Source of the DNA: Bdellovibrionales bacterium
GTDB lineage: Bacteria > Bdellovibrionota > Bdellovibrionia > Bdellovibrionales > UBA1609
DNA: 35,594 bases
Assembly: GCA_007121385.1 (NCBI GenBank)
Contig: SKLV01000098.1
Location: forward strand, 1 to 35,594
Direction: 5' to 3'
The first letter of the stretch is position 1. Each line of letters starts with the position of its first letter. Under the pieces are notes generated by a model, which did no database searches, had not been told where the DNA came from, and saw only the letters and a program-made list of their open reading frames with translations. The position numbers and the translations under genes are program-made. Positions 3,371-31,445 of the stretch are shown here, in pieces.

Positions 3371-3411
3371 TGCCTTTCCTCAAAAAAAACCTTTTGGTTT
3401 CAACAGGTTCT

Positions 3412-3440
3412 TTATCGGCACAAAGGGGTTAAAAACTTGA
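3412..3440 (-). promoter_or_regulatory. Possible sigma-28 (FliA)-type promoter
   Basis: On the minus strand the -10 region reads GCCGATAA (3419-3412), identical to the sigma-28 consensus. Upstream is TCAAGTTT (3440-3433), one change from TAAAGTTT. The gap between them is 13 nt rather than the usual 11, so the match is imperfect. A start of transcription near 3405 would leave about 35 nt before the GTG at 3370. Confidence 0.4.
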
Positions 3441-3472
3441 GGAGCGCGAAGCGTTATTTGAAAAAATTAAAC

Positions 3473-3513
3473 AAAAAATCTCACTTTAGACCAGTTTAGG
3501 TGACCCAAACCGA
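3473..3513 (-). terminator. Probable intrinsic terminator after the agmatinase-like gene
   Basis: Just after the TAA of the upstream gene the minus strand can fold GGTTTGGG-TCA-CCTAAACT into a stem of about ten pairs with some G-U. A run of six T follows about a dozen bases later. It separates the enzyme gene from the lipoprotein/fibre unit. The T-run is further from the stem than in ideal terminators. Confidence 0.4.
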
Positions 3514-3517
3514 GACT

Positions 3518-13536: not shown

Positions 13537-14820
13537 TTATCGCTTGAGATTAATCACTTCCGCCAGAAGCTCATCGGTGGTGGTGATCGTCTTGGCATTG
13601 GCCTGAAAGCCCCTCTGGTTCTGAATCAGATTCACAAACTCTCGAGCCAGATCCACCGTAGAGCGCTCCAGAGACTTGGCCATGAGGTTCCCTCGACCGG
13701 CATGACCGGGCTTACCAAAGGCGGGGGAGCCTGAGTCGTTGGCCTCTTTCATGCGGTTATTACCCACTTTGAAGAGAGCCTCAGGATTTTCAAAACGGGC
13801 CAGAGCAATTTGTGCTAAGTCCTGAGTCAAGCCATTGGAGTACAGAGCTGTCAGCACTCCTCGATCATCAAAAGACAGGTTGGTGATGGTTCCTGCTGAA
13901 GCCCCGTCCTGTTGCCAGCTGATCATGTCTGAGTCTCGACCATACTGCTTAGTGCCGACAAGGCCATTGCCCCCTTCCGCAATGGCGTCCCCAAAGTTCA
14001 GCTTGATCTGCTGGTTCTGAAGGGCCCCACCGGCAAAGTTAAATGCCGAATTCAAAACTTCTTGGCTCTCCAACTTTCCATCCACAGTGAAGGTCAAACG
14101 CCCTGAAACCACCTCGGCCATCTGATCCGCAGAAGCTCCCACAACACTGGCTCCATCCACCATACCTCTATATTCCCAAACCCGGTCGGCCACTTTATTA
14201 AAAAACATGGACACCAAATGTTTATTCCCCTGAGAGTCATAGATCTCAATCCCTGTGGTGTAGTGAGATGTGTCATAGGGGCTGGTGGGGTCAAATGTCT
14301 TGGTGGGCTCCACGCGAGAGTCCAGGTTGAGGTCCAACTTGATCTCAGTGGTGGCCCGGGCGGGAATCAGAGCGCGAGGAAAGCGGATGTCCTCCAACCT
14401 ATTTAAAATCACCCCATTCTCATCGGCTGTAAAGCCTTGAACTCTCTGTTTGTCGTTGGTCACCAGGAAGCCCTCTCGATCAAAGTGAAAAGAGCCATCT
14501 CGAGTGAAGGACTCCCCATCCGAACCTCGGAGAACAAAGTAGCCATCTCCGGCGATAGCCAGGTCTGTGTCCTTTTCTGTCGCATCAATGTTTCCCTGGA
14601 CCAGAATGGGGTTTACCGCACCGATTTTCACACCGCGGCCAATCTGGTTGCCCCCGAGAATGCCCTTCAGGCTCTTTCCAATAATATCCTGAAATTCCGC
14701 CCGACTGGATTTAAACCCTGTGGTGTTGGCGTTGGCGATGTTGTCACCAATGACTCCCAGGGCTTCACCCTGAGCGGCTAAACCGGATACACCGGTGTAG
14801 AGAGACGCAAGAATGCTCAT
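13537..14820 (-). CDS. flgE: Flagellar hook protein FlgE
   Basis: 427 residues. It forms the hook, the universal joint outside the outer membrane. The N-terminal rod/hook motif is complete (LYTGVSGLAAQGEALGVIGD then NIANANTTGFKSSRAEF), as is the C-terminal coiled-coil motif (DLAREFVNLIQNQRGFQANAKT then TTTDELLAEVINLKR). The central D1/D2 region includes DLAIAGDGYFVLR near 85-97. It is the last gene of the flagellar unit, with about 64 bases before it that contain a strong secondary structure covering its GGAGG ribosome binding site. Substrate switching after hook completion would involve FliK and FlgD encoded just upstream. Confidence 0.95.
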   Translation of the reverse strand: MSILASLYTGVSGLAAQGEALGVIGDNIANANTTGFKSSRAEFQDIIGKSLKGILGGNQIGRGVKIGAVNPILVQGNIDATEKDTDLAIAGDGYFVLRGSDGESFTRDGSFHFDREGFLVTNDKQRVQGFTADENGVILNRLEDIRFPRALIPARATTEIKLDLNLDSRVEPTKTFDPTSPYDTSHYTTGIEIYDSQGNKHLVSMFFNKVADRVWEYRGMVDGASVVGASADQMAEVVSGRLTFTVDGKLESQEVLNSAFNFAGGALQNQQIKLNFGDAIAEGGNGLVGTKQYGRDSDMISWQQDGASAGTITNLSFDDRGVLTALYSNGLTQDLAQIALARFENPEALFKVGNNRMKEANDSGSPAFGKPGHAGRGNLMAKSLERSTVDLAREFVNLIQNQRGFQANAKTITTTDELLAEVINLKR

Positions 14821-14824
14821 ATAA

Positions 14825-14864
14825 GACCTCCATGTCTTAATGGAGGGGCCCCCTCAATGAGGTC
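14825..14864 (-). promoter_or_regulatory. Structured flgE leader covering the ribosome binding site
   Basis: In the minus-strand RNA, CCTCCAT (14846-14840) and ATGGAGG (14833-14827) form a perfect 7-bp stem with the loop TAAGAC. The 3' arm carries the flgE Shine-Dalgarno GGAGG. The overlapping GAGGG/CCCTC (within 14843-14855) and GACCTC/GAGGTC (14864-14859 with 14830-14825) pairings offer alternative folds. The pairing is seen; a regulatory role is inferred. Confidence 0.5.
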
Positions 14865-14884
14865 CAGCCCCGGTTAATTAATTT

Positions 14885-15313
14885 TTAAATCACCACTGTA
14901 CTGTCGATATTGGTAAACACGTTCTCCTTTAAGCTACTTTTATCCATTACCGTCACCACAGTTTGACTTTTAATATTCACAATAAGGGCCGACTCATCGG
15001 TCAAAACCAGAGTCTCTCGGGCTCCTTTGGCCTGTGCTTTTTGCACAGCCCTCTCAATTTGGGCCAACTGCTCAGGCCCAAAACTCACTCCGCGACTTCG
15101 CATTCGATCCACCGCGTGGTTGGAAAAGCGCAGGGAATCAGACCCGGCCAAACTGGACTGCGTCGGCTTTTCTAAATTTGAGCGAGACAACAGAGCCTGT
15201 TTGAACTCACTCGCTGAAGCCGGAGAGATTCCCTTTCCCTTCCGAACAATCTCCACTCCGGTCTGAGGCTGGAGTGTTTGAATTTTTGACTGAATACCCT
15301 GACTAGATGCCAA
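14885..15313 (-). CDS. Flagellar operon protein (TIGR02530 / Flagellar_put family)
   Basis: 142 residues from a TTG start that overlaps the flgD stop by 11 nt. The conserved half begins at about residue 62 with LRFSNHAVDRMRSRG and continues through ALIVNIKSQTVVTVMDK and ends NVFTNIDSTVVI. This is the pattern of the small protein often found between flgD and flgE in Firmicutes and delta-like flagellar operons. The N-terminal half is variable and probably disordered. Its biochemical function is not established; the position suggests a hook assembly role. Confidence 0.8.
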   Translation of the reverse strand: MASSQGIQSKIQTLQPQTGVEIVRKGKGISPASASEFKQALLSRSNLEKPTQSSLAGSDSLRFSNHAVDRMRSRGVSFGPEQLAQIERAVQKAQAKGARETLVLTDESALIVNIKSQTVVTVMDKSSLKENVFTNIDSTVVI

Positions 15314-16193
15314 CCTTCACACCCTGTTCATTGAGTTCATTCATAAGCTCTCGACTCACCCCGACACCACTGAGCTCACTCCCCCGCTCCTTATCTTCAG
15401 AGCCAGGAATCTCTCTTTGCAAAAGCTTCTCCACCTCTTCCCCTTTCACGAGCTTGGGGTCCACGATACTTTTGATGTCTGCCATGCGCACTTGCTGAGA
15501 GCCCACCATCATCACAGGCCCTTGCGGAGTGAAGTTCACTCCGGTGATCACTCCCTCAAAGCGTGTTGAGGCATGGACCCTTGAACCGTTAGAGGCTTTG
15601 GCTTCAATTTCCACTCGGTAGTCCCCAGGCCGGGCGATGGAGCCATCGTCCAAAATCCCATTCCAAGTGGCATGATTGCGCCCCTCACCTTGTTGAGTCA
15701 GCACCATGCTTCGAACCACTTGCCCATCTGAATTTAAGATTCGCAGCTCAGTGGACACTGCCGGGGCAGCCAGATCGTAGCGAATCAGGTGGGACTCTCC
15801 CTGCTCGGCGCGAAAAATCTGGGAGGAGTCTCCGGCCACCGCCTTGCCAATCAAGTTCAAGGAGCCCATGTTAGTGTCTGGCTGATGAGCTTGGGCCAGT
15901 TTATTAATCCCTTCATCAATATTAGCCAACTTTTCTAAAGAGGTGAACTGGGCCAACTGGGCTGCCATTTCGTGACTTTGGAGAGGATTGGTGGGGTCCT
16001 GATTTTGCAGCTGGGCCAGGAGCATTTTCAAAAAGGCGTCCTTGTCCATGGCATCACTGCCCACCGTGCGCAGTTGGCGATTGGGATCTGTCCAATTGGG
16101 GTCGGTGATCTGATTCAAAACCTGATCGAGAGGCCGATTGTTGAAGTGCTCTGCACGATCATTGGCACTGAGGGTTTGCAGAATCGAGCTCAT
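15303..16193 (-). CDS. flgD: Flagellar hook cap/assembly protein FlgD
   Basis: 296 residues, somewhat longer than the common 220-250. FlgD caps the growing hook and guides FlgE polymerisation. The conserved N-terminal motif is present at about 52-92: DAFLKMLLAQLQNQDPTNPL then AAQLAQFTSLEKLANI. A beta-rich C-terminal part follows (STELRILNSDGQVVRSM, ATWNGILDDGSIARPGDYRVEI), matching the FlgD Tudor/Ig domains. About 50 extra residues at the end are specific to this protein. AAGGAAGG precedes the ATG. It sits between fliK and the small flagellar operon protein. Confidence 0.92.
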   Translation of the reverse strand: MSSILQTLSANDRAEHFNNRPLDQVLNQITDPNWTDPNRQLRTVGSDAMDKDAFLKMLLAQLQNQDPTNPLQSHEMAAQLAQFTSLEKLANIDEGINKLAQAHQPDTNMGSLNLIGKAVAGDSSQIFRAEQGESHLIRYDLAAPAVSTELRILNSDGQVVRSMVLTQQGEGRNHATWNGILDDGSIARPGDYRVEIEAKASNGSRVHASTRFEGVITGVNFTPQGPVMMVGSQQVRMADIKSIVDPKLVKGEEVEKLLQREIPGSEDKERGSELSGVGVSRELMNELNEQGVKVGI

Positions 16194-16216
16194 AAATACC
16201 TTCCTTTAAAACTCAT

Positions 16217-17842
16217 CTAGGCCACCAAATCCAATCTTCGAGCCATGGCCTCGCGACGAGCGGCCTGAGCCGCCGCCACCATATCCTCATTGTGAGCAGG
16301 GTCGTGAATTTGCGACCTATAGGCTCTTATTCCCGGCATATCTAAAAAGCCCCGGCGAAAAGCCTGGTTCTCCTGACGAAATTGTTCCATAAAGTGCTGT
16401 GCCGTATGCCTTTGCTGCTGCTCCTGCTGTTGACTGAAATCCCGAGCCAGATCGGCAGTCTCAACTTTAATTTGATCCACATTAATTTTTTGCGCCACCA
16501 GCTGAGTGCGAAGGTCTCCCAATTGGGTCTCAAGAAGCTTTTTGGCCTCCACAGATTGGGTCAGCATTTGCACATTCACCTGACCATCTTTGACATTCAC
16601 CTTGAGATTGACTTCACCTAAACCCTCCGGATAGAGGATCACCTTGACTTCGCCGCCGCCCCGCTTGGCGACAAACTGAGCCTGATTCAAAATTTCGTTG
16701 ATGTTGGCCTCAGGTTCGGCCGAAGTCACCCGACTGACTAGAGATGGAAGAGGAGCGGAAAGCGAGGTGGCTGCATTGGAAGAAGAGCTCCCCGGGGCCG
16801 CTGAAACTATAGGTTGAAAAGACTCCCCACGAAAATCCTTGGCTCCCACCTCGCTGATTCCCGAATCAGTGGCTTTGACCACCTCTGAAAGCTCAGGGGA
16901 AGAGGGGGTTTGGGGCATCGAGGTCAAATTGGGCTCCAAAGCGGCTGAGGGTCTGGAGGAAGTGGGTTGCTCTTTGAAAAACTGAGCTTCCTGAAGACCT
17001 CCAGGCTGTCTCTGTCCTTCGGGAGTCGGTTGAAGCGGGTGAGCGGACTCAGAAGTTCTGAGACCTCTCTGAGCATTGGAGGCCCCCTCTTGACCTTCAA
17101 GTTCAAGAGGCTCAACTTCCAGAGGCTCAGCTTCTAAGAGCTGAGGACTTTGAGCCCCCAAGCTCTTTCCGACCTGAGAGACCATGCCCAAAGGCCACTG
17201 GCCCGGCTCTACTGAAGTTTTTTGTGATGATTCTAAAATTTTCTCAAAACCAATTCGGGAAGGCGCAGGCTGTGGGGAAACCTGTGTGGATTCCTCGACC
17301 ACAGTTTTTTTTGTGGCCAACATTTTTTGTTCAATAAAGAATCTCTGATTCAAATCCTCTAGAGACTGGTGAAGCTGGCCCTGCTTTTGCCCTTGGCTCA
17401 TCATGGAGAGTATCCCCAGACCTCCAGCTCCTGGCATAATATAGGCTTCCAGAGGACGACCTGGGGTGGCCTCAAAGAGATCTTTGAATATCTCTCTGGC
17501 TTTTTCCGCTTGATCACTTTCTAGACTCAAGCTCTCTACAAGCTCTCCGATCTGCTGAACAGGAGGGGCTTGTAAACCCAAAGAAGACACTTGCAAAAAA
17601 GCCATCTCCAATTGATTGGCTTCTAGGTCCAAGCTGTTTTGGACCTCACGCACAAACTTCTGTACAGCCGCTCGCTCTTGTCCGCTCACCCGATGAGCCC
17701 CTGAATCTTCTGAGGCCTGAGAGAGGTGGCTCTCCTCGGAAAACTGAGAGGTCTTAGGACCTTTAAGTCCTTCCCCAGAATAAGGTTGAGTCCTTAATCC
17801 AGGAGAAGAGCTCATAAACTGAAGTGGGCTGAACAAATCCAT
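16217..17842 (-). CDS. fliK: Flagellar hook-length control protein FliK
   Basis: 541 residues. FliK measures the hook and triggers the export switch. The first 380 residues are low-complexity, rich in Gln, Ser, Glu and Pro, as is normal for the exported ruler part. The C-terminal Flg_hook domain lies at about 395-470: GGGEVKVILYPEGLGEVNLK, VNVQMLTQSVEAKKLLETQL, and RTQLVAQKINVDQIKVE. A Gln-rich and Arg-rich tail follows (FSQQQEQQQRH). AAGGAAC precedes the ATG. It lies between the MotE-like gene and flgD, the common order. Confidence 0.9.
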   Translation of the reverse strand: MDLFSPLQFMSSSPGLRTQPYSGEGLKGPKTSQFSEESHLSQASEDSGAHRVSGQERAAVQKFVREVQNSLDLEANQLEMAFLQVSSLGLQAPPVQQIGELVESLSLESDQAEKAREIFKDLFEATPGRPLEAYIMPGAGGLGILSMMSQGQKQGQLHQSLEDLNQRFFIEQKMLATKKTVVEESTQVSPQPAPSRIGFEKILESSQKTSVEPGQWPLGMVSQVGKSLGAQSPQLLEAEPLEVEPLELEGQEGASNAQRGLRTSESAHPLQPTPEGQRQPGGLQEAQFFKEQPTSSRPSAALEPNLTSMPQTPSSPELSEVVKATDSGISEVGAKDFRGESFQPIVSAAPGSSSSNAATSLSAPLPSLVSRVTSAEPEANINEILNQAQFVAKRGGGEVKVILYPEGLGEVNLKVNVKDGQVNVQMLTQSVEAKKLLETQLGDLRTQLVAQKINVDQIKVETADLARDFSQQQEQQQRHTAQHFMEQFRQENQAFRRGFLDMPGIRAYRSQIHDPAHNEDMVAAAQAARREAMARRLDLVA

Positions 17843-17868: not shown

Positions 17869-18639
17869 CTACCTCTTGTAGCCAGCAAACCTCTCTGTCA
17901 GCGACTGTGCTTTCTCTGGGTCCAAAACATTCAAAATCTCCGCCGCGTTCTGCCTCTTCATGCTACCCAAAATTTCAACGGCCAAGTCGTCGTTCAGGTT
18001 GGCGATAATCTGAGCTGCTTGCTGCGGTCTCATGTTTGAGTAAACCTCAACAAGCCTATCGACCCTGGCCCTATCCGTCTCCACTCGATCCTTAAGGACT
18101 CCCGCAATCTGGCGACGCGTCTCTTCAAGCTGCCGAATACGTGCATCAATCTCATCCTTTTGCCTATGCAATTCCTCTTCCAACCTATTGAGCTGAGCCT
18201 CCCGCTGATCTAGCTGCTGTTTTCTCTCAGCTAAGCGACTAAAATGATTCAGTTCTTCAAGGCTGTAGTCCCCAGCCATCTCGCTACCCATCGAGACTGG
18301 TTCCGTCCCTTGACCAGGGACTTCTTGCCTAGTCCCTGCGGGAAGGCCAGGGTTTTTTTGCCGATCCTGATTGGCCAAGGCGGAACTTCCCCACTTCACC
18401 TGAACTCTCGTAAGTAAAAAATCCAGGACCTCAGGCCGAGTACTCAAACCCGCCATCAGGCTCAGCAGAATCAACCCCACTGAAAAAGCTCCCCAAGGAA
18501 AACGGGCTCGTCGGCGAATCAGGGTTGGAGAAGTTTTTCCCCTCTTCTTGAGAGAAGGGCCACGTTGGGTCGGGCGCTCCCGAGTTCCTGCCTTAGCCGC
18601 TTTTGCGGCTTTAAAAAATTGATCATATCCCTGGCTCAC
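17869..18639 (-). CDS. motE: MotE-like flagellar protein (membrane anchor, coiled coil, MgtE-N-like end)
   Basis: 256 residues from a GTG that shares one base with the fliJ stop (TAGTG); GGGGGAG lies upstream. The order is a basic cytoplasmic N-terminus (1-47), one membrane helix at 49-66 (WGAFSVGLILLSLMAGLS), a spacer, a coiled coil at about 125-195 rich in Glu, Arg and Gln, then a helical C-terminus (YSNMRPQQAAQIIANLND, VEILGSMKRQNAAEILNVLD) like the MgtE N-domain and FliG-like repeats. This is the layout of the MotE family, which in some bacteria helps stabilise or chaperone the stator. Position after fliJ and before fliK fits. The role here is inferred. Confidence 0.8.
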   Translation of the reverse strand: MSQGYDQFFKAAKAAKAGTRERPTQRGPSLKKRGKTSPTLIRRRARFPWGAFSVGLILLSLMAGLSTRPEVLDFLLTRVQVKWGSSALANQDRQKNPGLPAGTRQEVPGQGTEPVSMGSEMAGDYSLEELNHFSRLAERKQQLDQREAQLNRLEEELHRQKDEIDARIRQLEETRRQIAGVLKDRVETDRARVDRLVEVYSNMRPQQAAQIIANLNDDLAVEILGSMKRQNAAEILNVLDPEKAQSLTERFAGYKR

Positions 18640-19088
18640 TAGATTCTCCCCCTCCCCGAGCGCATGACCACAATGTCATCAAGTTCTCGACCCTCTCTCT
18701 TTTTCAAGGTCTGCCGATACTCCTGATACTTTCTCTCTTTTAAGACATCTAAGGTTTTACGCTCTTTGGAAGCTTCCACAAGAGTCTCTTGTTTAGCCTC
18801 CACATCCATCATCAAATCTCGAGCTTTCAACCGCTCTTGCTTAATCTTGATTTCCAAACCAAAAATATACGACTGCAGTTGAGTGATTCGATCTACAGCT
18901 CCCCTCTCTCTCCCCTGCTCCTCTCTCGCAATTTTATCACGGGCCATTCTTATTTGGTCAAAGTGGGTCTGAATCTGGCCCAAACACTGGTCCAACTTGT
19001 TTCTGGCCTGAAAAAAACTTCTTTTCGCTTCCCCTTCCTGTTGAATTGCGTTCTTAAGGACGGCTTCTAATGAAAATTTAAACTTCAT
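18639..19088 (-). CDS. fliJ: Flagellar export protein FliJ
   Basis: 149 residues, almost wholly helical and charged, beginning KFKFSLEAVLKNA, the typical FliJ opening. FliJ is the stalk-like coiled coil that inserts in the FliI hexamer and links it to FlhA, resembling the F1-ATPase gamma subunit. It follows fliI after 19 bases and shares one base with the next gene. GAGAGAT precedes the ATG. Sequence conservation in this family is low, so the call relies on length, helix pattern and gene order as well as the N-terminus. Confidence 0.85.
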   Translation of the reverse strand: MKFKFSLEAVLKNAIQQEGEAKRSFFQARNKLDQCLGQIQTHFDQIRMARDKIAREEQGRERGAVDRITQLQSYIFGLEIKIKQERLKARDLMMDVEAKQETLVEASKERKTLDVLKERKYQEYRQTLKKREGRELDDIVVMRSGRGRI

Positions 19089-19107
19089 CTTAGAAATCTC
19101 TCATGAC

Positions 19108-20451
19108 CTAAGTCTGGCTATATTGTTGCATCTGCAGCATAAGATCATAGGTTTGACCCCATTCAGTGGGATCATCATGAGCCTGTCGCAAAAAGGCCTC
19201 AATAGCGGGCTGCATCTGGACCGCCTGATCCAGCCGAGCATTAGCTCCTTTTTTATAGGCTCCAATAGAAATCAAGTCCTCAGCCTCCCGAAAAACTGCC
19301 AGATTTTCCCTTATCACCTGGGCCAACTGGCGATGCTCCCGAGAGATTACACTGTCCATCACGCGGCTGGTGCTCTGCAGAACATCAATGGCTGGAAAAT
19401 GGCCCCGATGAGCTAGCTTGCGACTGAGAACAATATGCCCATCAGTGATGGATCGAACTGCATCGCCAATAGGATCATCCATGTCATCAGATTCTACGAG
19501 AACCGTATACAAACCCGTGACACTTCCTCCGTGGTCAAAAGATCCCGCCTGCTCCAAGAGCTTTGGCAAAAGGGAAAAAACACTGGGTGTATATCCCTTG
19601 GTGGTGGGTGGTTCTCCCACATTGAGCCCAATCTCTCGCTGCGCCATGGCCAATCGGGTGATGGAGTCCATCATTAACAAGACCTGACGTCCCTGATTGG
19701 CAAAATAGCCAGCAATTCGAGCGGCTGCAAAAGAGGCTCTCAGACGAACCAAGGGACTTTGATCTGAGGTTGCCACAACAACCACTGACTTTTTAAGTCC
19801 CTCCTCTCCCAAATTTCTCGCAATGAACTCTTTGACCTCACGACCCCGCTCACCAATAAGGGCAATGACATTGATGTCTGCACTGGACCCACGAGAGATC
19901 ATTCCCATCAGGACAGATTTTCCAACTCCCGACCCCGCTAAAACGGCCATTCTCTGTCCCTGACCTATAGTCAGCAGACCATCGATGGCTCTCACCCCAA
20001 AACTTAAAGGCTCTTCAATAAGCTTGCGATCCATGGGCCTTGGCGCCTCTCCATAAAGAGTCTGTTCCTCCTCGGACTCAAATTCGCCTAGGGAATCCAG
20101 CGGCTGCCCCAAACCATCAATGACCCGTCCCAAGAGACCTGCCCCCAAGCCAATGGTCGATCTGGGCTGAACCAAGACCACCTTTGACCCGAGCCCCACC
20201 CCATGCATCTCTCCTAGGGGCATGAACAGAACTTGACGATCCTGGAAGCCCACCACCTCCACCAAAAAAGGGGGTTGTCCCCCGACAGGAAACACCTGAC
20301 AAAAACTCCCTAGGGAAACCCCTGGAATGTAGCCTTTGAGTAAAAAGCCTGTGACCTGAGTGATCTTACCAATATCATGGGTGGCTGACCCATGTTCTAG
20401 GGCCAAATTGTATCGATTGAGGTTGAGTGTTTGTGGTCCCACAGGGTTCAC
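19108..20451 (-). CDS. fliI: Flagellum-specific ATPase FliI
   Basis: 447 residues. It is the ATPase of the flagellar type III export apparatus, related to F1 beta. Walker A GSGVGKS at 173-179, ALIGERGREVKEF at 197-209, VVVVATSDQSPLVRLRA, and LLMMDSITRLAMAQREIGL are all intact. The GTG start overlaps the fliH stop in a GTGA, so translation is coupled to fliH, whose product binds and regulates FliI. Confidence 0.96.
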   Translation of the reverse strand: MNPVGPQTLNLNRYNLALEHGSATHDIGKITQVTGFLLKGYIPGVSLGSFCQVFPVGGQPPFLVEVVGFQDRQVLFMPLGEMHGVGLGSKVVLVQPRSTIGLGAGLLGRVIDGLGQPLDSLGEFESEEEQTLYGEAPRPMDRKLIEEPLSFGVRAIDGLLTIGQGQRMAVLAGSGVGKSVLMGMISRGSSADINVIALIGERGREVKEFIARNLGEEGLKKSVVVVATSDQSPLVRLRASFAAARIAGYFANQGRQVLLMMDSITRLAMAQREIGLNVGEPPTTKGYTPSVFSLLPKLLEQAGSFDHGGSVTGLYTVLVESDDMDDPIGDAVRSITDGHIVLSRKLAHRGHFPAIDVLQSTSRVMDSVISREHRQLAQVIRENLAVFREAEDLISIGAYKKGANARLDQAVQMQPAIEAFLRQAHDDPTEWGQTYDLMLQMQQYSQT

Positions 20452-21236
20452 GAGGCCTGCTCTCCTACATCACTCTTGAACTTTGGGAACTTCTTAACTA
20501 AAATTTCCCAAACTTTCTGGACTCTCTTCTCCCAAGTGGCATCAATAGACCCGTAGTTGCTCTCGACAAGGCAGCCCCCTCGGGAGAGACCGCCTTTGGC
20601 CTCCAAGCGAAGTTTTTTCAAAAAGTCCAAATCCTGACCCTCCTGACTCTGAAGACTCTTCACAAATTCCAGATCCTCGGGAGCCAGATAAACTGTTAAA
20701 CGCTCGTCACTCTGGGCCGATTCCACCACTTGCTTCATCACTTCTAGAACTAAAATGGGGCTGTGCTCCAGATTGGCCATAGCCACTTTATTGGCAATTC
20801 GGTAAGTGAGGTCCACCAAGCCCTTCTCATTTTGGGCCAGCAGACTCTGTTTCATTCTCTCCAAAGACAACAGAACCTCACCCAGTGATTTTAGACTCTC
20901 CTCAAACTGATTTCGGTACTCGGCTAAGGCTTGCTCTCGCCCCTCAGTGCGCCCCAGCTCGAAACCCTCGGCAAAGGCTTTCTCCTGGAGGCCCTTCATT
21001 CTCTCAAGAGTCTCCTGCTCAATTTTCTCTTCCAGTTGCTGCTTTTGGATCTCGGAGATGCCCACTCGAGCGGCCACTAAAGGACTGATTTGAAAACCAC
21101 TTTGAGATTGCTCTTGGAGCATTAGGAATTCTTTGGCCTGGTTCTCTGGAGCCTTTGGCAAAGGCTTCAGACTGTAGTCCAGAATGACCTGATTGCCTGA
21201 ATCTTTTTTATATACATTGACCTTAGACAAGGGCAT
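20448..21236 (-). CDS. fliH: Flagellar assembly protein FliH
   Basis: 262 residues from the ATG at 21236 (MPLSKVNVYKK); the frame is open to a TTG seven codons earlier. FliH is the FliI-binding, stator-like element of the export apparatus. Seen: a helical middle (about 65-130) with FAEGFELGRTEGREQALAEY, where G-EGREQALA resembles the FliH/YscL glycine-containing helix, and the C-terminal V-ATPase-E-like domain with GGCLVESNYGSIDATWEKR. It overlaps fliG by 14 nt and fliI by 4 nt. Confidence 0.9.
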   Translation of the reverse strand: MPLSKVNVYKKDSGNQVILDYSLKPLPKAPENQAKEFLMLQEQSQSGFQISPLVAARVGISEIQKQQLEEKIEQETLERMKGLQEKAFAEGFELGRTEGREQALAEYRNQFEESLKSLGEVLLSLERMKQSLLAQNEKGLVDLTYRIANKVAMANLEHSPILVLEVMKQVVESAQSDERLTVYLAPEDLEFVKSLQSQEGQDLDFLKKLRLEAKGGLSRGGCLVESNYGSIDATWEKRVQKVWEILVKKFPKFKSDVGEQAS

Positions 21237-22263
21237 CTTCCGATCCACCGCGAGCAATCAAAATCTTTCCCTCGGCCTCTAAGCGTCGAGCCACATTTAC
21301 AATCTCTACCTGAGCAGACTCCACATCGGAAAGGCGTGAAGGACCCATATTGGCTAGATCGTCTTGAAGAAGCTTCGCTGCCCGTTGGGAAATATTTTTG
21401 AAAATCTTATTTCGAATCTCTTCATTGGAAGTCTTAAGGGCCAATAAAAGCTTGTCGTTGGGCACTTCCTTAAGCAGAGTCTGTATACCTCTGTCATCAA
21501 TCTTAATGATATCTTCGAAGACAAACATCAGTTTTCGAATCTCCTCAGCCAAAATAGGGTCTTTCTCTTCGATTCTCGACATAATGGCCGTCTCGGTATT
21601 CTTGTCCATGACATTGAGCATCTCCGCCACCGGTTGAACCCCACCCAGAGCTGCCTGCTCCACGGTGCCAATGGTGGACAGCTCCTGCTTGAGGACTCGA
21701 TCCACCTCAGCAATAAGTTCCGGCGCCACATGATCTAAATTAGAAAGTCGCAAAACCACCTCAGCCTGAAGGGACTCCGGCAGACGCTTGAGAACCTCTC
21801 CTTTTTTCTCTGGCTCTAGGTGAGCTAAAATGACCGAAATGGTCTGAGGATGTTCGTTCAAAAGAAAATTCGAAAGGGACTTAGCATCCACCAACTCCAA
21901 ACTCTCCAAGTTCCTTGCCGCCGGAGTGTTGGCACTCAAGTGCCCAAGGATTCCCCGTGCTCTTTCCTCCCCCACTGCATCGACCACTGTGTCCTTATTT
22001 GTGGTCTTCTCGGAAAAAATATAATCTTCGGCTTCACTGATCATTTCATAGTACTCTTCCAGAACCCTTTTGGTGATGGCCACCGGGACGATGCGATACT
22101 TTTGCATGGTATTAAGAAGTTTTCGAATGTCACTGTCATCAGTTCGCCGGAAGAGTTTTTTTGCAGCATCGGGACCCAGATAGTTTAAAAGGATTGCAGC
22201 TTTATCAAAGCCTTTGAGGTCTTCATATTTTATGTTTTCTAACTTCAGAAGACGGGCACTCAT
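21223..22263 (-). CDS. fliG: Flagellar motor switch protein FliG
   Basis: 346 residues from the ATG at 22263, fixed by AAGGAG upstream and an ATGA overlap with the fliF stop; a GTG seven codons earlier is less likely. FliG is the rotor protein on the MS ring that meets the stator. Seen: GFDKAAILLNYLGPDAAKKL near the start, the middle EHPQTISVILAHLEPEKKGEVLKRLP motif (EHPQT at about 156), and the C-terminal charged torque helix MFVFEDIIKIDDRGIQTLLKEV. The charged residues that interact with MotA are present. Confidence 0.96.
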   Translation of the reverse strand: MSARLLKLENIKYEDLKGFDKAAILLNYLGPDAAKKLFRRTDDSDIRKLLNTMQKYRIVPVAITKRVLEEYYEMISEAEDYIFSEKTTNKDTVVDAVGEERARGILGHLSANTPAARNLESLELVDAKSLSNFLLNEHPQTISVILAHLEPEKKGEVLKRLPESLQAEVVLRLSNLDHVAPELIAEVDRVLKQELSTIGTVEQAALGGVQPVAEMLNVMDKNTETAIMSRIEEKDPILAEEIRKLMFVFEDIIKIDDRGIQTLLKEVPNDKLLLALKTSNEEIRNKIFKNISQRAAKLLQDDLANMGPSRLSDVESAQVEIVNVARRLEAEGKILIARGGSEDALV

Positions 22264-23909
22264 ACATCTCTCCTTGTCAGCCACAGACTAAAAGCTCCTG
22301 CTGACTTCTCTTCATCTTGCTCCATCATGCTCATGATTCGCTCTTTCAACAGCTCACTTTCTGCCTTGTCCGGATCCAAAGACTCCTCTAAGACTGGCAA
22401 AGCCCCACTCATTCCCGGCAGTGTATTGTCGACGGACTGAAGCTCCTCCAGCTCCTCAATTGTTCGGGGAAGAATATCCTCTACCGAATCCTGGAAAGAA
22501 TCGGTGATCCACCGCATGAAAGGTCGCATGACAATAAAGAAAAATAGAACGAGAATAAGTCCTATCAGCGACCACTGCGTCAGCTGTCGGAGTAGTTTTT
22601 CCTGATCCAGGAAGGTCATGAGGGATTGGGCATCAGACATATCATCGTATTGAAAGCGTATGCTCTCAATGCTCACGCTGTCGCCACGGGCGGCATTAAA
22701 GCCAATGGCATTGCGCACAATGGTTTCAAAGCGAGCCAACTCCTCGGCCGATCGAGGCTGCCACTGCATCTCCACAGTCCCATCTTCAAGGGTCACTGGG
22801 GCCTCTACACCATCCACAAGTACGGCCACAGAAATTCTCTCCAATCCTCCTGCGGCCTCCCGGATATTGCGGACTGTTTTGGGAACCGCGAAATTGGTGC
22901 TCTTCAGTTCCTTGCGGACATTCTGCTTAAAACCCACTTCTCCCATTTCCTCGGCCCCGGGCAAGTTGGCCCGAGCGCCAGGAATCCCCACCGGATTGGT
23001 TCTGGCTCCATCCAGGACCTCCTCCTCAGTCTGAATACTCCGAACAGCTGTTGAGTCAGGGTCCACTGTCTCTTCAATCATGGAAATATGTCGAGGATTG
23101 AGAGTGGCATTCACCCGGGCTGTCACTTTGCCCACCCCCACCACCCGGGCTAAAATAGACTCCACTCTCTGCTCAATATTGGACTCCACCCGGGCCTTAA
23201 TGTCCAAAAGCTCCGCGGAGGCCACGGACTCAGGAGAACCATCTCTCGACAAGGTCCGACCTCTCGTATCTACAACCGTCACCCGCTCAGGCGCCATTCC
23301 CTGCACCGAGCTCGCCACCAGTTGGGTGATGCCCCGAATTTGATCCGGCTGCAGAGTCTTTCCTTGGTGAAGGTCAAGAACCACCGAAGCTGAGGGCTGG
23401 CCGGCTTCTTCCAAAAAGGTCTTTCTCTCGGGTAAAGCCAAAATCACTCGAGTCTGACGAACAGCGCTGAGGGTGTTGATCGCTCGCATCAATTCGCCTT
23501 GCAGAGCGCGCTGGTAGTTGATTCTCTGAGAGTAGGAAGTGGCCCCAAAGTCCTGCTTTTCAAAGATCTCGAGCCCCACATTGCCAATCTTCCCTGTCCC
23601 GAGCTCTGTCATCACAGACATTTGAGTGGCATGGAGGAGATCCTTGGGGACCATCACTGTGGCCCCATTGTCCGCCAGGCGAAAAGGAATATTCTTTTCT
23701 TGGAGATTCTGGACAACCAGAGGTAACTGGTTGGGAGGAACATTAGAGAACAAAACCGCATAGTTCGTTGATGAGACCATGAGGCCCACAATGACCACCG
23801 AGGCAAATATCGTAAAGATAGAGGCCAAGATGGACATTTTCTTTATAGGACTCAGAGTGTTGTAGAACTCTGAGAACTGTGAGATCAGTTGTGCCAACAG
23901 CTGTTGCAA
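22260..23909 (-). CDS. fliF: Flagellar MS-ring protein FliF
   Basis: 549 residues. FliF forms the MS ring in the inner membrane, the first basal-body structure to assemble. It has two membrane helices: about 26-46 (ILASIFTIFASVVIVGLMV) and about 445-465 (LIGLILVLFFFIVMRPF). Between them are the ring-building domains with YAVLFSNVPP, PSASVVLDL, ITQLVASSVQGMAPERVTVVD and VGKVTARVNATLN. The C-terminal 40 residues (PDKAESELLKERIMSMM) bind FliG. The start is a TTG with GGGGGAA upstream; no ATG lies ahead of the first helix. The TTG may hold down output of this protein. Confidence 0.95.
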   Translation of the reverse strand: MQQLLAQLISQFSEFYNTLSPIKKMSILASIFTIFASVVIVGLMVSSTNYAVLFSNVPPNQLPLVVQNLQEKNIPFRLADNGATVMVPKDLLHATQMSVMTELGTGKIGNVGLEIFEKQDFGATSYSQRINYQRALQGELMRAINTLSAVRQTRVILALPERKTFLEEAGQPSASVVLDLHQGKTLQPDQIRGITQLVASSVQGMAPERVTVVDTRGRTLSRDGSPESVASAELLDIKARVESNIEQRVESILARVVGVGKVTARVNATLNPRHISMIEETVDPDSTAVRSIQTEEEVLDGARTNPVGIPGARANLPGAEEMGEVGFKQNVRKELKSTNFAVPKTVRNIREAAGGLERISVAVLVDGVEAPVTLEDGTVEMQWQPRSAEELARFETIVRNAIGFNAARGDSVSIESIRFQYDDMSDAQSLMTFLDQEKLLRQLTQWSLIGLILVLFFFIVMRPFMRWITDSFQDSVEDILPRTIEELEELQSVDNTLPGMSGALPVLEESLDPDKAESELLKERIMSMMEQDEEKSAGAFSLWLTRRDV

Positions 23910-23933
23910 GTCAGTTCCCCCCGATAGATTTTA

Positions 23934-24269
23934 TCAAACCTGCATCCTCATAACTTCTTGATAAGCATCGATAACTTTATTGCGAACCTGAACGAGCATT
24001 TTGAGCGCAATATCTGCCTTTTCTACGGCCAACATCACCTCGGGAATATTCTTGTTCTCCCCCGTGGCCAGAGCTTCCATTTTGCTATCTGAAACTCTCT
24101 GCAGCTCATTGACTTGATGGACAGCTGATTTAAGACTTTCGGCAAAAGAGGGGCCTGATGAACTCGGGATCTCTAGGCCGGTACTTTTTTGCCGCTGACT
24201 CCGGATTTCACTTAGGGTGTCTCCGGTACTTATAAAATGCTCCGCATTTCCTATCGTCAAACCTTCCAT
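23934..24269 (-). CDS. fliE: Flagellar hook-basal body protein FliE
   Basis: 111 residues. FliE joins the MS ring to the rod. The conserved second half is present: FAESLKSAVHQVNELQR, then PEVMLAVEKADIALKMLVQVRNK and the ending VIDAYQEVMRMQV. AGAGGT lies seven bases before the ATG, in a short AT-rich palindromic stretch (CTTTA...TAAAG around TTAATTAATTAA, 24286-24297). It is placed between flgC and fliF as usual. Confidence 0.93.
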   Translation of the reverse strand: MEGLTIGNAEHFISTGDTLSEIRSQRQKSTGLEIPSSSGPSFAESLKSAVHQVNELQRVSDSKMEALATGENKNIPEVMLAVEKADIALKMLVQVRNKVIDAYQEVMRMQV

Positions 24270-24307
24270 GGCTTAACCTCTTTAGTTAATTAATTAAAGT
24301 TTAACAC

Positions 24308-24745
24308 CTAGCGCCCGATTTCCAAAGCACTTAAAGCCATATCTTTGGTGGCTTGCATAGCTGCGACGTTGGCCTCGTAAGATCGGGTGGCCTGAATCAT
24401 GTTGGCCATCTCCTCCATTAAGTTAATATTAGGATAAGCCACATAGCCCTCGTCGTTGGCGTCGGGGTGGTTGGGCTCATACTTCATCATAGGCGCCTTT
24501 CGATCCACATGAATATCCGTCACTTGAACCCGCTTTAAGTTCCGGTCTGGACTTGTGGTCAGGATTTCGCCAAAATTCCTAGCCTCAGGTATAGCTTCAA
24601 ACACCACGTCCTTGCGCCGGTAAGGCCCCCCTTCAGGAGTCCTTGTGGTGTTGATGTTGGCGATATTACTGGCCACGGTATTCATTCGCATTCTCTGGGC
24701 CGTCAGTCCACTACTAGACACATTCATGGCTTTTGAAAAATCCAT
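24308..24745 (-). CDS. flgC: Flagellar proximal rod protein FlgC
   Basis: 145 residues, normal length. The N-terminal rod motif (SSSGLTAQRMRMNTVASNIANINT) and the C-terminal motif (NLMEEMANMIQATRSYEANVAA, then ALSALEIGR) are complete, with YVAYPNINL before the C-terminal helix. AAGGAGAT precedes the ATG. It forms part of the proximal rod with FlgB and FliE. Confidence 0.95.
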   Translation of the reverse strand: MDFSKAMNVSSSGLTAQRMRMNTVASNIANINTTRTPEGGPYRRKDVVFEAIPEARNFGEILTTSPDRNLKRVQVTDIHVDRKAPMMKYEPNHPDANDEGYVAYPNINLMEEMANMIQATRSYEANVAAMQATKDMALSALEIGR

Positions 24746-24761
24746 GTCCTATCTCCTTTCC

Positions 24762-25175
24762 TTACCTCGTACCTTCGGTGACGGCATAGCGCATAGAGGC
24801 CAACTTTTTATTCATCAACTGAAGGGCCGCCTTGTACAAAATAGAGTTTTCGTTAAGAGTGGCTATCTCTTTTTCCATATCCACAGTATTCCCATCCTGG
24901 GAGACATTCACATCTGGGTTGTCGTAGACATCTGGACGCACTCTGGACAGGGACCCTTGGCCCATGAGAAAGTGGTCAGGATGATCTGCATGGAGACGAC
25001 CAAGCCTCTCACGATCAATGGCTCTGGATAAGGCCTGTTCAAAGTCCACCACTTGGGCCTTGTAGCCAGGAGTTTCCGCATTGGCAATGTTGGCGGCGGT
25101 GACATTGTGACGCAAGAGCCGCATATTGACCGAGGCCGCCAAGGCGTCCGTGGTTTTATCAAAAAGTCCACTCAT
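24762..25175 (-). CDS. flgB: Flagellar proximal rod protein FlgB
   Basis: 137 residues. FlgB is the first rod protein. The conserved pattern is seen: LLRHNVTAANIANAETPGYKA at about 20-40 and the C-terminal DMEKEIATLNENSILYKAALQ then LNKKLASMRYAV-like ending. The ATG overlaps the stop of the upstream sigma-54 activator in an ATGA, so the regulator and the first structural gene are translationally coupled. The upstream GGGGGTG may serve as ribosome binding site. Confidence 0.93.
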   Translation of the reverse strand: MSGLFDKTTDALAASVNMRLLRHNVTAANIANAETPGYKAQVVDFEQALSRAIDRERLGRLHADHPDHFLMGQGSLSRVRPDVYDNPDVNVSQDGNTVDMEKEIATLNENSILYKAALQLMNKKLASMRYAVTEGTR

Positions 25176-26131
25176 GAGGTCACCCCCAAATTTAAACCAT
25201 CTCGATATTCGTTAATTTTATTGCGTAGAGTTCGAATGCTGATGCCCAACAGCTGGGCAGCCTGTGTGCGGTTTTGACAAGTGTGCTCTAAAGTTTTTAA
25301 AATAAGTAGCCGTTCCGCCTCTGAGACTGTCATTCCTGGCATCAAAGCAGGATCGCTGGGCTGGGGCCTAAAATCTTTAATCAGAATATCAGCTTCTGAA
25401 AGCTGGCGTTGAGGACTCATCAAGACCGATCTTTCAATGACATTTTGAAGCTCTCGGACATTGCCCGGCCAACTCCAGGATAAAAGCTTTTCCCGAGCCT
25501 CGGGCAAAAGTTCTTTACATTCCAATCCATTATTGGCGCAGGACATCTCTAAAAAGAGCTCAGAGAGCAAGCGAATGTCAGCCTTTCGCTGTCGCAGGGG
25601 CGGAATTTCCAAGGGGATGACATTAAGACGATAGTAGAGGTCCTCTCGAAAGCCCCCTTGCTGGATGGATTCCAGCAGATTCCTATTTGTTGTGGCAATA
25701 ATCCTAACGTCCACAGGCTGGGGCCTGTCAGCCCCTAAACGCTCAACTTCCCCTTCCTGCAAAACCCTGAGAAGCTTGGCTTGAAGGGGCAAAGACATTT
25801 CCGTAACTTCATCCAGAAGAAAGGTGCTTTTATGAGCCAGTTCAAATTTTCCCAGCTTTCGATTGAGGGCTCCCGTGAAGGCCCCTTTTTCATAGCCAAA
25901 GAGCTCACTCTCTAGAAGCCCTTCAGGCATTGCAGCACAGTTTATTGCCACAAAAGGGCGGCCAGATCGAGAGCTCTTGCTGTGAATATATCGAGCCATC
26001 AGCTCTTTACCCGTCCCGCTCTCTCCACTGATCAGTACACTGGCCCGACTCCCGGCCACATTTTCGGCCATCTGCACCAGACGGCGCATCGTAGGGTCGG
26101 CGGTATTGATCAAGTTAAACTCACTGCTCAT
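25172..26131 (-). CDS. Sigma-54-dependent activator without receiver domain (FlbD/FlrC-like)
   Basis: 319 residues from the ATG at 26131, which has AAGGAG six bases upstream; a TTG eight codons earlier is less likely. It is an AAA+ enhancer-binding protein that remodels sigma-54 RNA polymerase. Walker A GESGTGKE at 36-43, the sigma-54 contact loop GAFTGA at 83-88, Walker B STFLLDE at 102-108, the arginine-finger stretch FREDLYYRLN at 161-170, and a Fis-type HTH at about 287-309 are all intact. Unlike NtrC or FlrC there is no N-terminal receiver: only about ten residues precede the AAA+ domain. Activity must then be constitutive or controlled by a partner protein. It lies in the flagellar operon between a TPR gene and flgB, behind a sigma-54 promoter, so it may activate its own operon. 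Confidence 0.92.
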   Translation of the reverse strand: MSSEFNLINTADPTMRRLVQMAENVAGSRASVLISGESGTGKELMARYIHSKSSRSGRPFVAINCAAMPEGLLESELFGYEKGAFTGALNRKLGKFELAHKSTFLLDEVTEMSLPLQAKLLRVLQEGEVERLGADRPQPVDVRIIATTNRNLLESIQQGGFREDLYYRLNVIPLEIPPLRQRKADIRLLSELFLEMSCANNGLECKELLPEAREKLLSWSWPGNVRELQNVIERSVLMSPQRQLSEADILIKDFRPQPSDPALMPGMTVSEAERLLILKTLEHTCQNRTQAAQLLGISIRTLRNKINEYRDGLNLGVTS

Positions 26132-26164
26132 AAAAGTCTCCTTTAAGCTCTCCAATATTCCTGT

Positions 26165-29128
26165 TCACTCCACCATGGCTGGGATTCGGTTAATGTACCT
26201 TTGATATTCTTCACTCCACTGGGAATGCTGGAGTCTCTCGTCAGCCAAAGACCGGTAAATTGAGTCCTTTTGAGAGTCTAGGGCTTGCCAGATCTGTTCC
26301 GCGCCCCTAATGTCGCCCAAGTCATAAAGAATGTTGCCAGCGCGAAATCGAACATCGGCCAAGGACGTATGACTGGAAAACTCCTCCAAGAGACGGGTGT
26401 AGGACTCCAGAGCAGCTATTTTCTGCCCCTTCTTAAAGAGAATGTCGCCCTGAAGCCTCAAAGCCGCCGCCAGATTTTCAGAGGCTTGACTGTTCTGAGT
26501 TTGAGGGCCTTGCACGAGGCTCTCAACTATTTTCGCCCCCCTCTTATAATCCTTTGTCTGCTTGTAAAGCCTTGCCAGCTCTAAATCAAGCCGACTCCGC
26601 TCCTCCTGAGGACCTTTCCAGTTGGAGCGCACCCACTCCAGTCCAGCAATGGCCTCCCCAACCAAGCCTCTCTCCTCAGCTAAGCGGGCCGCCAACTCAG
26701 CCCTTTCCAGTTGCTCTTGACCACTCAACGCATTCTCAGGGCCCAAAGCACTCAGGTGGTGGGCGGCCCTAGCAAACTGTCGCTGTTCCCAGGCTGTCTT
26801 CGCCAGTCGAAGCTTTAAAGTGTCTATGGAGGGCAGGTTTTCGTTCACCCTTTTTTCTCTCTCCATCTCTGTCCCTGCAATACCCTTGAGCTCTTTAAGA
26901 ACTTTCTCATAGAGGCTGGCCGCCTGATCAAAGACTCCCGCCTGCTCATAGGCTCTGCCAATCAAATAGGGAATATCTGTTCTCGTCGAGTTTCTTAACC
27001 AGTTTCGGGAGTATTGACTGTGCAGTTTTAAGCTTTCCAAAAACTGGTTTTCACTCACCAAATCCAGAATAGCATCTGAAAATGCCGCCGCGACCCGCTG
27101 ACGAAAGAACTCCTGGTTGGTTGTAGTGGGATGGCGCTGGTAGTAGGCTGTCAAGTACTGCATAGCTCGCTGATGTTCACCCCGAGCCTGAAAACCATCG
27201 GCAATAAGGAGTGTGACAAACTCAGGAGCCCTGGGCAGGGGCGATCGCTCGGCGATCTCGAGCATCTCGGTCAGGGCCTGGTTCAACTCAGCCTCCCTCA
27301 TCCCCCTCATCCTTTGACTTAACATGCGAATACGGGCCAACTCCGCCCCGGGGTGACCCCGATAGCGAAAGTGACTCTCCAAAAAAGCCCCCATCACGCG
27401 ACTCTTGTCCACGCCGAGAATGTCCATGATTTCCCCGATCCGAGTCATGGCATAGCCCCCATGGGAGTGGGCTGGAAACCGCTTTAGAAACTCAACCAGA
27501 TGATCCAAGCTTCTCAAGTGCTGGGCCTGCCAAAATAGAGCCTCGCCCTTATTAAAGTGAGCATTTGGAAAAATATCTTCAAACTCCGGATGTTCGAGGA
27601 GAGCTTTTTGGTAAGCCTTAATGGCCTGATCATAATCTCTCTGCAGAAAATGAATGTCTCCCAATCGATACTTGGCCTCCACCGCCGAACTGGGAGACCG
27701 GGCGGATTGTACCATCTGTCGGTAGACTTCCTCGGCTTCCTCAAATTGATTAAGGCTCAAATGAACCTCAGCGAGAGCTCGACGGACCGAGTCCGTCTCC
27801 TCAGACTCAGGATGTTTTTTTAAGAAATCCACCAACCTCTGCAGAGCCCTCAGTCCGTCCTCCATCTCCAAACTTCCGTAGGCTAGAATCAGCTCTGTTC
27901 TCTCGGCAAGTGGAGAGTTGGGATAGCGATGAAGAAGATAGGTGTAGAGCTGACGGGCCTGGTCAAAGTCCCTTCTCTGTCCATTTTGGAGCCACTGACT
28001 TAAGTGCAGCTCAGCGGCCAAATTCTTCACTATTTCGTCGTAGTCTGAACTAGGATAGCGATCGTTAAAGTATTCAAAGGTCTTTAAAAAAGTGGCCAGT
28101 CGTCCTCTTTGGTAAAGTGCCAGCAAGAGTCGAGCCTCCCTATTTTCTCGAGTTTCTTTAGGGATAATTTCAAACTCTGGACGATCCTGAGCGAGATGAC
28201 GGAGACGGCTCGCCGGCATCATCAATAGAGGGAAGCGAATATATATATTACTCCGACTGGCAATCACAGCATCTGGGTTCACCTCATACTCTTTGACTCG
28301 AAAGCGGAGAAAATCCCGATCCCCACCATCAAAGACACCCCTTTGCTGGCCCCCCATGGCATTTTCTAGAAGAGCTGGATCTTCTTCTCCACTGAGAAAT
28401 TCCGCCATAGCGGGGGTGCGTCCAGACCCAACAGACTCCTCAGTGACCTCAGAATCTATTCTCTGATACTCCCCCTCAACGAGCTGTCCTGACTCCTTGA
28501 CTGGCATTGGTGCTTTTTCACTCACCCGTGGCTCTTTGGACGTCTGTGATGGGGGTTCCTGTGCCACAGGCTGCTGTACCACCTCCATGGGCCGATAAAA
28601 ATCCATGATGAGCCGAGAAGGTTCATCAGTGAGGTAATCAAAAATCTCTACCGCAGCCTCGCTGAGATGGAAGGTGACCAAATGAGATCCATCTGGCCCT
28701 TCTGTGTCCACTTCAATGGAGTTGACATGCATACCGCGAAAGGTGTTCAACTGGACAATGGTGGGGCCATCGAGAGGAGGAACCATGGCCTGTATTTTCA
28801 GATCCTCGACTCTTCTCACATCATAGTCCCAGTGACGACGGCCGGAGAGCTCTAGATGAACTGTATCTCCAATGATAGAAATCCGTCCTCGAACCTGATT
28901 CATTTGGCTACTCGCTCCCACAGCCTGCCCCAAGGTCCACTCAGAAAAGCCAAGAAAAAAAACAAAGATCAAACCCAAAACAAGGTTCCCCTGTCTTTGA
29001 GTCCTGTCGAATCTTCGGCTTGATCTTAGTCCAAAGACTCTCAGTACAAATTTCTGAGTTCTTGATTTCTGAAGTGATAATAACTTCTTATTCAAATGAG
29101 TTCCCCACTCCTTAAGAGGCTCGACCAA
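26165..29128 (-). CDS. Large TPR-repeat protein with AMIN-like N-terminal domain, first gene of flagellar operon
   Basis: 987 residues from the TTG at 29128, with AGAGG 11 bases upstream. A TTG at 29092 is also possible; no ATG lies before residue 76. After a basic N-terminus, residues 48-69 are hydrophobic (LVLGLIFVFFLGFSEWTLG), so the protein is exported or anchored in the inner membrane. Residues ~76-178 are beta-rich (VRGRISIIGDTVHLEL, PSRLIMDFYRP) and resemble AMIN domains that bind peptidoglycan. A Pro/Glu-rich linker follows (180-300). From ~330 to the end there are many TPR-like helix pairs, for example FEEAEEVYRQMV, YDQAIKAYQKALLEHPE and FDQAASLYEKVLKEL. It is followed by the sigma-54 activator gene 33 bases on. 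A periplasmic scaffold for flagellar assembly is my inference; no defined function is known to me. Confidence 0.85.
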   Translation of the reverse strand: MVEPLKEWGTHLNKKLLSLQKSRTQKFVLRVFGLRSSRRFDRTQRQGNLVLGLIFVFFLGFSEWTLGQAVGASSQMNQVRGRISIIGDTVHLELSGRRHWDYDVRRVEDLKIQAMVPPLDGPTIVQLNTFRGMHVNSIEVDTEGPDGSHLVTFHLSEAAVEIFDYLTDEPSRLIMDFYRPMEVVQQPVAQEPPSQTSKEPRVSEKAPMPVKESGQLVEGEYQRIDSEVTEESVGSGRTPAMAEFLSGEEDPALLENAMGGQQRGVFDGGDRDFLRFRVKEYEVNPDAVIASRSNIYIRFPLLMMPASRLRHLAQDRPEFEIIPKETRENREARLLLALYQRGRLATFLKTFEYFNDRYPSSDYDEIVKNLAAELHLSQWLQNGQRRDFDQARQLYTYLLHRYPNSPLAERTELILAYGSLEMEDGLRALQRLVDFLKKHPESEETDSVRRALAEVHLSLNQFEEAEEVYRQMVQSARSPSSAVEAKYRLGDIHFLQRDYDQAIKAYQKALLEHPEFEDIFPNAHFNKGEALFWQAQHLRSLDHLVEFLKRFPAHSHGGYAMTRIGEIMDILGVDKSRVMGAFLESHFRYRGHPGAELARIRMLSQRMRGMREAELNQALTEMLEIAERSPLPRAPEFVTLLIADGFQARGEHQRAMQYLTAYYQRHPTTTNQEFFRQRVAAAFSDAILDLVSENQFLESLKLHSQYSRNWLRNSTRTDIPYLIGRAYEQAGVFDQAASLYEKVLKELKGIAGTEMEREKRVNENLPSIDTLKLRLAKTAWEQRQFARAAHHLSALGPENALSGQEQLERAELAARLAEERGLVGEAIAGLEWVRSNWKGPQEERSRLDLELARLYKQTKDYKRGAKIVESLVQGPQTQNSQASENLAAALRLQGDILFKKGQKIAALESYTRLLEEFSSHTSLADVRFRAGNILYDLGDIRGAEQIWQALDSQKDSIYRSLADERLQHSQWSEEYQRYINRIPAMVE

Positions 29129-29155: not shown

Positions 29156-29173
29156 AAGCACATAAAGTGCCAA
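29156..29173 (-). promoter_or_regulatory. Sigma-54 promoter of the flagellar operon
   Basis: The minus strand reads TTGGCACTTTATGTGCTT. GG and GC are separated by exactly ten bases, as sigma-54 requires. TGGCAC is perfect and GTGCT differs by one base from TTGCT. Transcription would start near 29146, about 18 bases before the TTG of the TPR gene. The operon encodes its own sigma-54 activator, which supports the call. Confidence 0.8.
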
Positions 29174-29319: not shown

Positions 29320-29397
29320 CATCGACCTGGACTATTTTTATGCAAAATTTTTCCTATAAATCTCTTGGAAAAGAGTTCGTCTTTGCCGATAAACAAG

Positions 29398-31441: not shown

Positions 31442-31445
31442 GAAA

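Follow-up and report, generated by a model that had tools for sequence, protein, structure and literature searches.

A probable PflA-type motor spoke protein at the head of a flagellar operon in Bdellovibrionota

The window analyzed here, a 35,594-nucleotide stretch of DNA from a Bdellovibrionales bacterium, carries on its minus strand a gene for a 987-residue protein that is probably (with a likelihood that we put at roughly 0.8) the Bdellovibrionota counterpart of PflA, the periplasmic spoke of the flagellar motor. This reading is based on the best structural match of the protein, chain K of PDB entry 9HMF, together with an AMIN-fold domain, co-occurrence with flagellar genes, conserved gene order, a sigma-54 promoter, and a gene of the FlgY/FlbB type in the same operon. 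PflA-type spokes have been proposed as ancient motor parts, and those outside Campylobacterota were mostly assigned by counting TPRs near flagellar genes. A PflA-like protein was already suspected in Bdellovibrio, and the window protein is a well-supported added member of this group. New findings are the presence of an AMIN fold in this lineage, its strict co-occurrence with flagella, the promoter, a FlgY gene in the operon, and a pair of conserved RxPA motifs.

Gene, operon and promoter

The coding sequence occupies 26165..29128, as the initial annotation had it, and lies on the minus strand, with 987 codons counted from a TTG at 29128. Judged by sequence conservation it is a genuine gene, far above chance, because full-length orthologues exist at 24–63% identity. 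By eye, translation could equally begin at a second TTG, codon 12 (29095), which is preceded by AAGGAG. The spoke gene is the first of a run of flagellar genes on the minus strand, in which neighbors overlap or are separated by 64 bp or less as far as flgE at 13537. It is followed by a sigma-54 activator with AAA+ and Fis-type HTH domains (25172..26155), by flgB, flgC, fliE, and fliF (22260..25175), by fliG, fliH, fliI, and fliJ (18639..22284), and, beyond a 256-residue E-ring-type gene discussed below, by fliK, flgD, a gene of the Flagellar_put family, and flgE (13537..17842), all of these identified with Pfam.

A putative sigma-54 promoter of the -24/-12 type, TTGGCAC-TTTAT-GTGCT, lies upstream of the spoke gene at 29157..29173 (minus strand). 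Its score of 27/30 was reached in 0.4% of shuffles, and 52 of 69 orthologues have a site scoring at least 26 ahead of the gene, where shuffles would predict 0.9. Gene order, the short gaps, and this site before the gene indicate that the spoke gene heads a flagellar transcript of about 15.6 kb, in agreement with its original designation as the first gene of a flagellar operon. An Rfam scan of the window gave no match. Upstream and divergent lies an Mla-type lipid-transport operon (29365–32258, plus strand), comprising a 196-residue gene that had no Pfam match, MlaE, an ABC ATPase, and MlaD; the two operons adjoin in this divergent arrangement in 57–59 of 73 loci, as tested with the 196-residue gene and MlaE.

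Protein architecture

The initial annotation described a signal or anchor segment, an AMIN-like domain at residues 76–178, and about 650 residues of TPR-like helices, and the features described here lie close to these. The putative signal-sequence region spans residues 47–69 (GNLVLGLIFVFFLGFSEWTLGQA; 28922..28990, minus strand). Residues 47–66 or so are hydrophobic and are followed by GQA, giving by eye the look of a Sec signal; an equivalent segment is present in aligned orthologues, and the signal-like N-terminus of the window protein and these orthologues may direct export to the periplasm. Next comes the beta domain, at residues 76–178 (28595..28903, minus strand), delimited by a confident AlphaFold prediction (pLDDT 95), Foldseek, and conservation. 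It is built from eight strands and one helix, with the beta structure itself placed at 79–178, and ends in the closing motif FDYLTDxPSRLIxDFY.

The domain is followed by a variable linker, rich in lysine in many orthologues, that is predicted to be disordered (residues 183–235; 28424..28582, minus strand), as judged by pLDDT below 50 and by column conservation. In the same disordered region, still at pLDDT below 50, lies a short RxPA motif (residues 237–240; 28409..28420, minus strand) that reads RTPAM in the window protein and in which R is kept in 61/62, P in 59/62, and A in 56/62 orthologues. It is possibly a partner-binding motif. A conserved and, in the model, mainly extended arm (residues 264–302; 28223..28339, minus strand), with the consensus GxFDGGDPxYxRF...FPML, then leads into a TPR-like superhelix at residues 327–981 (26186..28150, minus strand), supported by Pfam, AlphaFold, and Foldseek. 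The superhelix has about 21 hairpins, or about 42 helices, and runs to the C-terminus; its strongest Pfam match was TPR_6 (E 4e-18), and nothing beyond TPR-type and other helical-repeat families was matched in the protein. At the extreme C-terminus is a second RxPA motif, RIPAM (residues 981–985; 26174..26188, minus strand), which the orthologue alignment shows to be near-invariant (R 62/62, P 62/62, A 61/62). The protein carries RxPA twice, once in the linker and once at the C-terminus, with both copies near-invariant in the 62 orthologues.

The N-terminal domain has an AMIN fold

AlphaFold modeling of the full spoke protein from an alignment of 62 sequences gave a mean pLDDT of 87.5, with, in the numbering of the mature protein, strands and a helix at 12–111, disorder at 116–200, the extended arm, and then helices. 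The original AMIN proposal for the N-terminal domain is borne out by structure, with sequence profiles hardly detecting the domain. A Pfam search for AMIN (PF11741) with the domain of the window protein found no match, the AMIN profile matched only 5 of 29 orthologues and those weakly (best E 0.0016), and profile-profile comparison with the AMIN domains of Bdellovibrionales PilQ was not significant. Since the Pfam search was empty, fold comparison was used. When the domain was modeled separately (pLDDT 95), the four best Foldseek matches among 350,542 PDB chains were AmiC (4bin; E 6e-4, TM-score 0.75) followed by three PilQ structures (4aqz, 4av2, and 3jc8). Because all four of the best matches are AmiC or PilQ, the modeled domain is assigned the AMIN fold; no other fold matched it better, and the domain thus shares with AmiC and PilQ a fold to which the Pfam family is blind in the window protein.

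In AmiC and PilQ, the AMIN domain binds peptidoglycan. The fold, together with the position of the gene at the start of the operon, is compatible with a protein that marks a site on the peptidoglycan or scaffolds a gap in the cell wall, placing the basal body or admitting the rod, rather than one that serves as a stator spoke. This is improbable: a Pfam search of the protein found no hydrolase or lytic domain, and a TPR superhelix of this size greatly exceeds what such a role would need. The earlier idea that the protein opens the wall for the rod is accordingly unsupported.

Structural likeness to PflA

When the full model was compared by Foldseek with the same 350,542 PDB chains, the top match was 9hmf_K (E 1.8e-12), a chain of 773 residues aligned over 939 columns. 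Entry 9HMF is a deposit of the Campylobacter jejuni motor periplasmic scaffold (PMC12222027), and its chain K is taken to be PflA on the basis of length, as 773 residues fit PflA minus its signal. Chain 9hmf_L and a chain of a PflB complex, 9leq_B, were also among the matches. Unrelated TPR superhelices trail by a modest margin (next E 5e-11) and TM-scores are low (0.22–0.25), the superhelix being flexible and 9HMF an alpha-carbon trace, and therefore the Foldseek match is by itself no proof of kinship.

An alternative with the same biological role is that the protein is a motor ring component that acquired its combination of AMIN and TPR domains separately from PflA and differs from it in orientation or partners. 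It overlaps the reading as a PflA counterpart and differs solely on descent and geometry. TPR superhelices are generic, and CTR9, IFT, and SKI proteins were also matched by the full model. Three profile searches of PDB sequences returned many TPR proteins, and sequence similarity to PflA went undetected, PflA being absent among the matches listed (the best 60 in two of the searches). The sequence of PflA is itself not conserved between phyla, with homology shown just within Campylobacterota (PMC11870540), and convergence has been named as an alternative for such proteins (PMC5758724). Against it stand the domain order and AMIN fold, which are as in PflA, the FlgY gene in the operon, and the finding that PflA is the top structural match across essentially the full length. 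Convergence is therefore rather unlikely, although common descent is not proven, given the modest margin, the low TM-scores, and the nature of 9HMF, which is an alpha-carbon trace.

Co-occurrence and synteny

The distribution of the protein ties it closely to flagella. In a set of 59 genomes drawn from its own genome, genus, family, and order, the spoke protein was found in 46 and a true fliG, defined as a full-length frame with E below 1e-39, in 42. Both were present in 42 genomes, fliG alone in none, the spoke protein alone in four, and neither in 13 (Fisher P 6e-10, a value uncorrected for kinship among the genomes). The four with a spoke protein but without a true fliG (G013, G024, G028, and G049) have completeness of 89, 82, 74, and 86%, respectively. 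Twelve genomes of the same family, 1.2–2.4 Mb in size, have neither gene and may represent a reduced group that has lost its flagella.

A scan of named genomes yielded 74 loci, almost all of them in Bdellovibrionales or Bdellovibrionota and including B. bacteriovorus kdesi. In 68 of the 73 named loci tested, the gene is followed in the same orientation by flgB, flgC, and fliE, and the other five end at a contig edge. In remoter families of the phylum, whole frames of 840–1030 residues matched the profile with E-values down to 7e-60; 16 of 17 of these loci have flgB downstream, the remaining one being truncated by its contig, and the closing motif of the N-terminal domain is recognizable by eye in most of the proteins. 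Orthologues are thus found beside flagellar genes wherever the contig permits.

Length and architecture are near-constant across the order. This constancy argues against a further alternative, that the protein is a periplasmic chaperone or stabilizer of stator or E-ring proteins and has no structural role, comparable to what was first proposed for MotC and MotE. TPR proteins are frequently chaperones, and MotE was initially called a chaperone of MotC (PMC13023049), but homologous E-ring proteins proved to be structural (PMC13023049), and this explanation is the least probable of those considered.

An E-ring-type gene in the operon, and TPR and FliL-like proteins elsewhere in the genome

Between fliJ and fliK lies a gene for a 256-residue protein (17869..18639, minus strand). 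It has a membrane segment at the N-terminus, a coiled coil, and at the C-terminus an MgtE_N or ARM-like domain. The MgtE_N match scored 33.8 bits against a cut-off of 25.9, and the match to the Borrelia model NF047368 (collar_FlbB) had an E-value of 4e-13 and a score of 49.6, under that model's cut-off of 110. FlgY/FlbB E-ring proteins have this domain make-up and a place beside fliJ and fliK (PMC13023049), and the gene is read as FlgY/FlbB-type because both its domains and its position fit that description. Relatives follow fliJ in 29 loci, these being the loci that reach that far. The FlgY/FlbB-type protein is the predicted partner of the spoke.

Elsewhere in the same genome, a weak TPR match on contig C92 was considered as a second, spoke- or rim-like paralogue and was rejected because it sits in a Glt-type gliding cluster. 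This cluster (24000–42000 of C92) includes GltC (E 3e-62), a TPR protein of 1311 residues, and two OMP_myx barrels. Three FliL-like genes are present, on contigs C170, C24, and C92 (E 4e-24, 1e-18, and 1e-7), the last lying about 6 kb from the gliding genes. A TPR protein of 983 residues is encoded at 1408–4359 of a 5.6-kb contig, C152; its match to the Borrelia collar protein FlcA is weak (E 3e-12, far under the cut-off).

A model for the Bdellovibrionota spoke

The coiled coils of FlgY are reported to contact the PflA spokes at their inner ends (Feng et al., PMC11870540), and PflA lacking its sandwich and linker no longer supports PflB binding and rim assembly (PMC12222027). The orientation, partners, and ring proposed here are carried over from C. 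jejuni. Following Sec export, copies of the spoke protein would assemble early, with the MS ring or just after it. On the model of C. jejuni, RIPAM and the C-terminal end that bears it would point toward the MS ring and E-ring and touch the FlgY coiled coils, the superhelix would radiate outward as a spoke, and at the outer end the linker, with its RxPA motif, and the AMIN domain would hold a ring partner, a stator, or peptidoglycan. Such an assembly would account for the small ring of 12-fold symmetry at the inner membrane in B. bacteriovorus motors, which would position about 12 stators. An E-ring-type ring has also been reported in the B. bacteriovorus motor (Rossmann 2020, as cited in PMC13023049).

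A more tentative extension, somewhat doubtful at present, is that spokes in Bdellovibrionota work without a PflB rim. The RxPA motif of the linker might dock on MotB, FliL, FlgY, or a neighboring spoke, perhaps through the groove that also takes RIPAM, so that the spokes would close head to tail into a 12-fold ring. If true, such a PflB-less ring would represent a minimal, perhaps ancestral, PflA scaffold. The speculation about the Bdellovibrio 12-fold ring becomes directly testable in any event, with short motifs on offer for mutation.

Comparison with known systems

It was originally stated that no standard flagellar protein has this layout; in fact PflA and MotK both have it, and a Bdellovibrio protein had already been proposed as PflA-like (PMC5758724). 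PflA of Campylobacterota consists of a signal, an AMIN-like beta-sandwich, a flexible loop, and 16–17 TPRs (PMC12222027, PMC11870540), the TPRs forming an elongated superhelix that an unstructured linker connects to the N-terminal sandwich (PMC12222027). Feng et al. named this N-terminal domain AMIN from its resemblance to the AMIN domains of PilQ (PMC11870540). The window protein resembles PflA of C. jejuni and H. pylori (chain K of 9HMF, assigned by length, and the N-terminal domain in 9LEQ) in its export-type N-terminus, AMIN-like sandwich, linker, and TPR superhelix, and PflA co-occurs with FlgY much as the spoke gene shares its operon with a FlgY/FlbB-type gene. It differs in having about 21 helical repeats rather than 16–17, a longer linker with an RxPA motif, and a gene placed first in the flgB–fliE operon, and sequence similarity between the two was not detected. 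No candidate for a PflB rim partner was noticed beside the flagellar genes seen, which does not prove absence, and Chaban et al. likewise found no PflB homologue in delta-proteobacteria (PMC5758724).

MotK of Cereibacter sphaeroides likewise combines AMIN and TPR domains (PMC13023049). With MotC of Sinorhizobium, CC_2058 of Caulobacter, and FlcB of Borrelia, it belongs among the TPR-rich periplasmic flagellar proteins that the spoke protein resembles, each having an E-ring protein as its partner (MotE, CC_2059, or FlbB) (PMC13023049). These proteins come from other phyla, and they are likened to the spoke protein by description, with great sequence divergence reported in the literature (PMC13023049).

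The closest precedent is WP_011165745.1 of B. bacteriovorus, a long TPR protein of the flagellar operon with PflA-like architecture (Chaban et al., 2018; PMC5758724). It was speculated to form the 12-fold inner-membrane ring of the motor (PMC5758724), an idea repeated by Drobnic et al. (PMC12222027). In B. bacteriovorus kdesi, the orthologue of the window protein lies immediately before the sigma-54 activator and flgB, and from description and gene position it very probably corresponds to WP_011165745.1, which was published as a signal, a transmembrane helix, and TPRs with AMIN unmentioned. The initial suggestion of a lineage-specific motor part, of the sort seen as additional rings or scaffolds, is thus supported in the form of a PflA-like spoke, now described across a whole lineage with its full anatomy of AMIN domain, linker, and TPR superhelix, its co-occurrence with flagella, its fixed place in the operon, and a gene for an E-ring partner.
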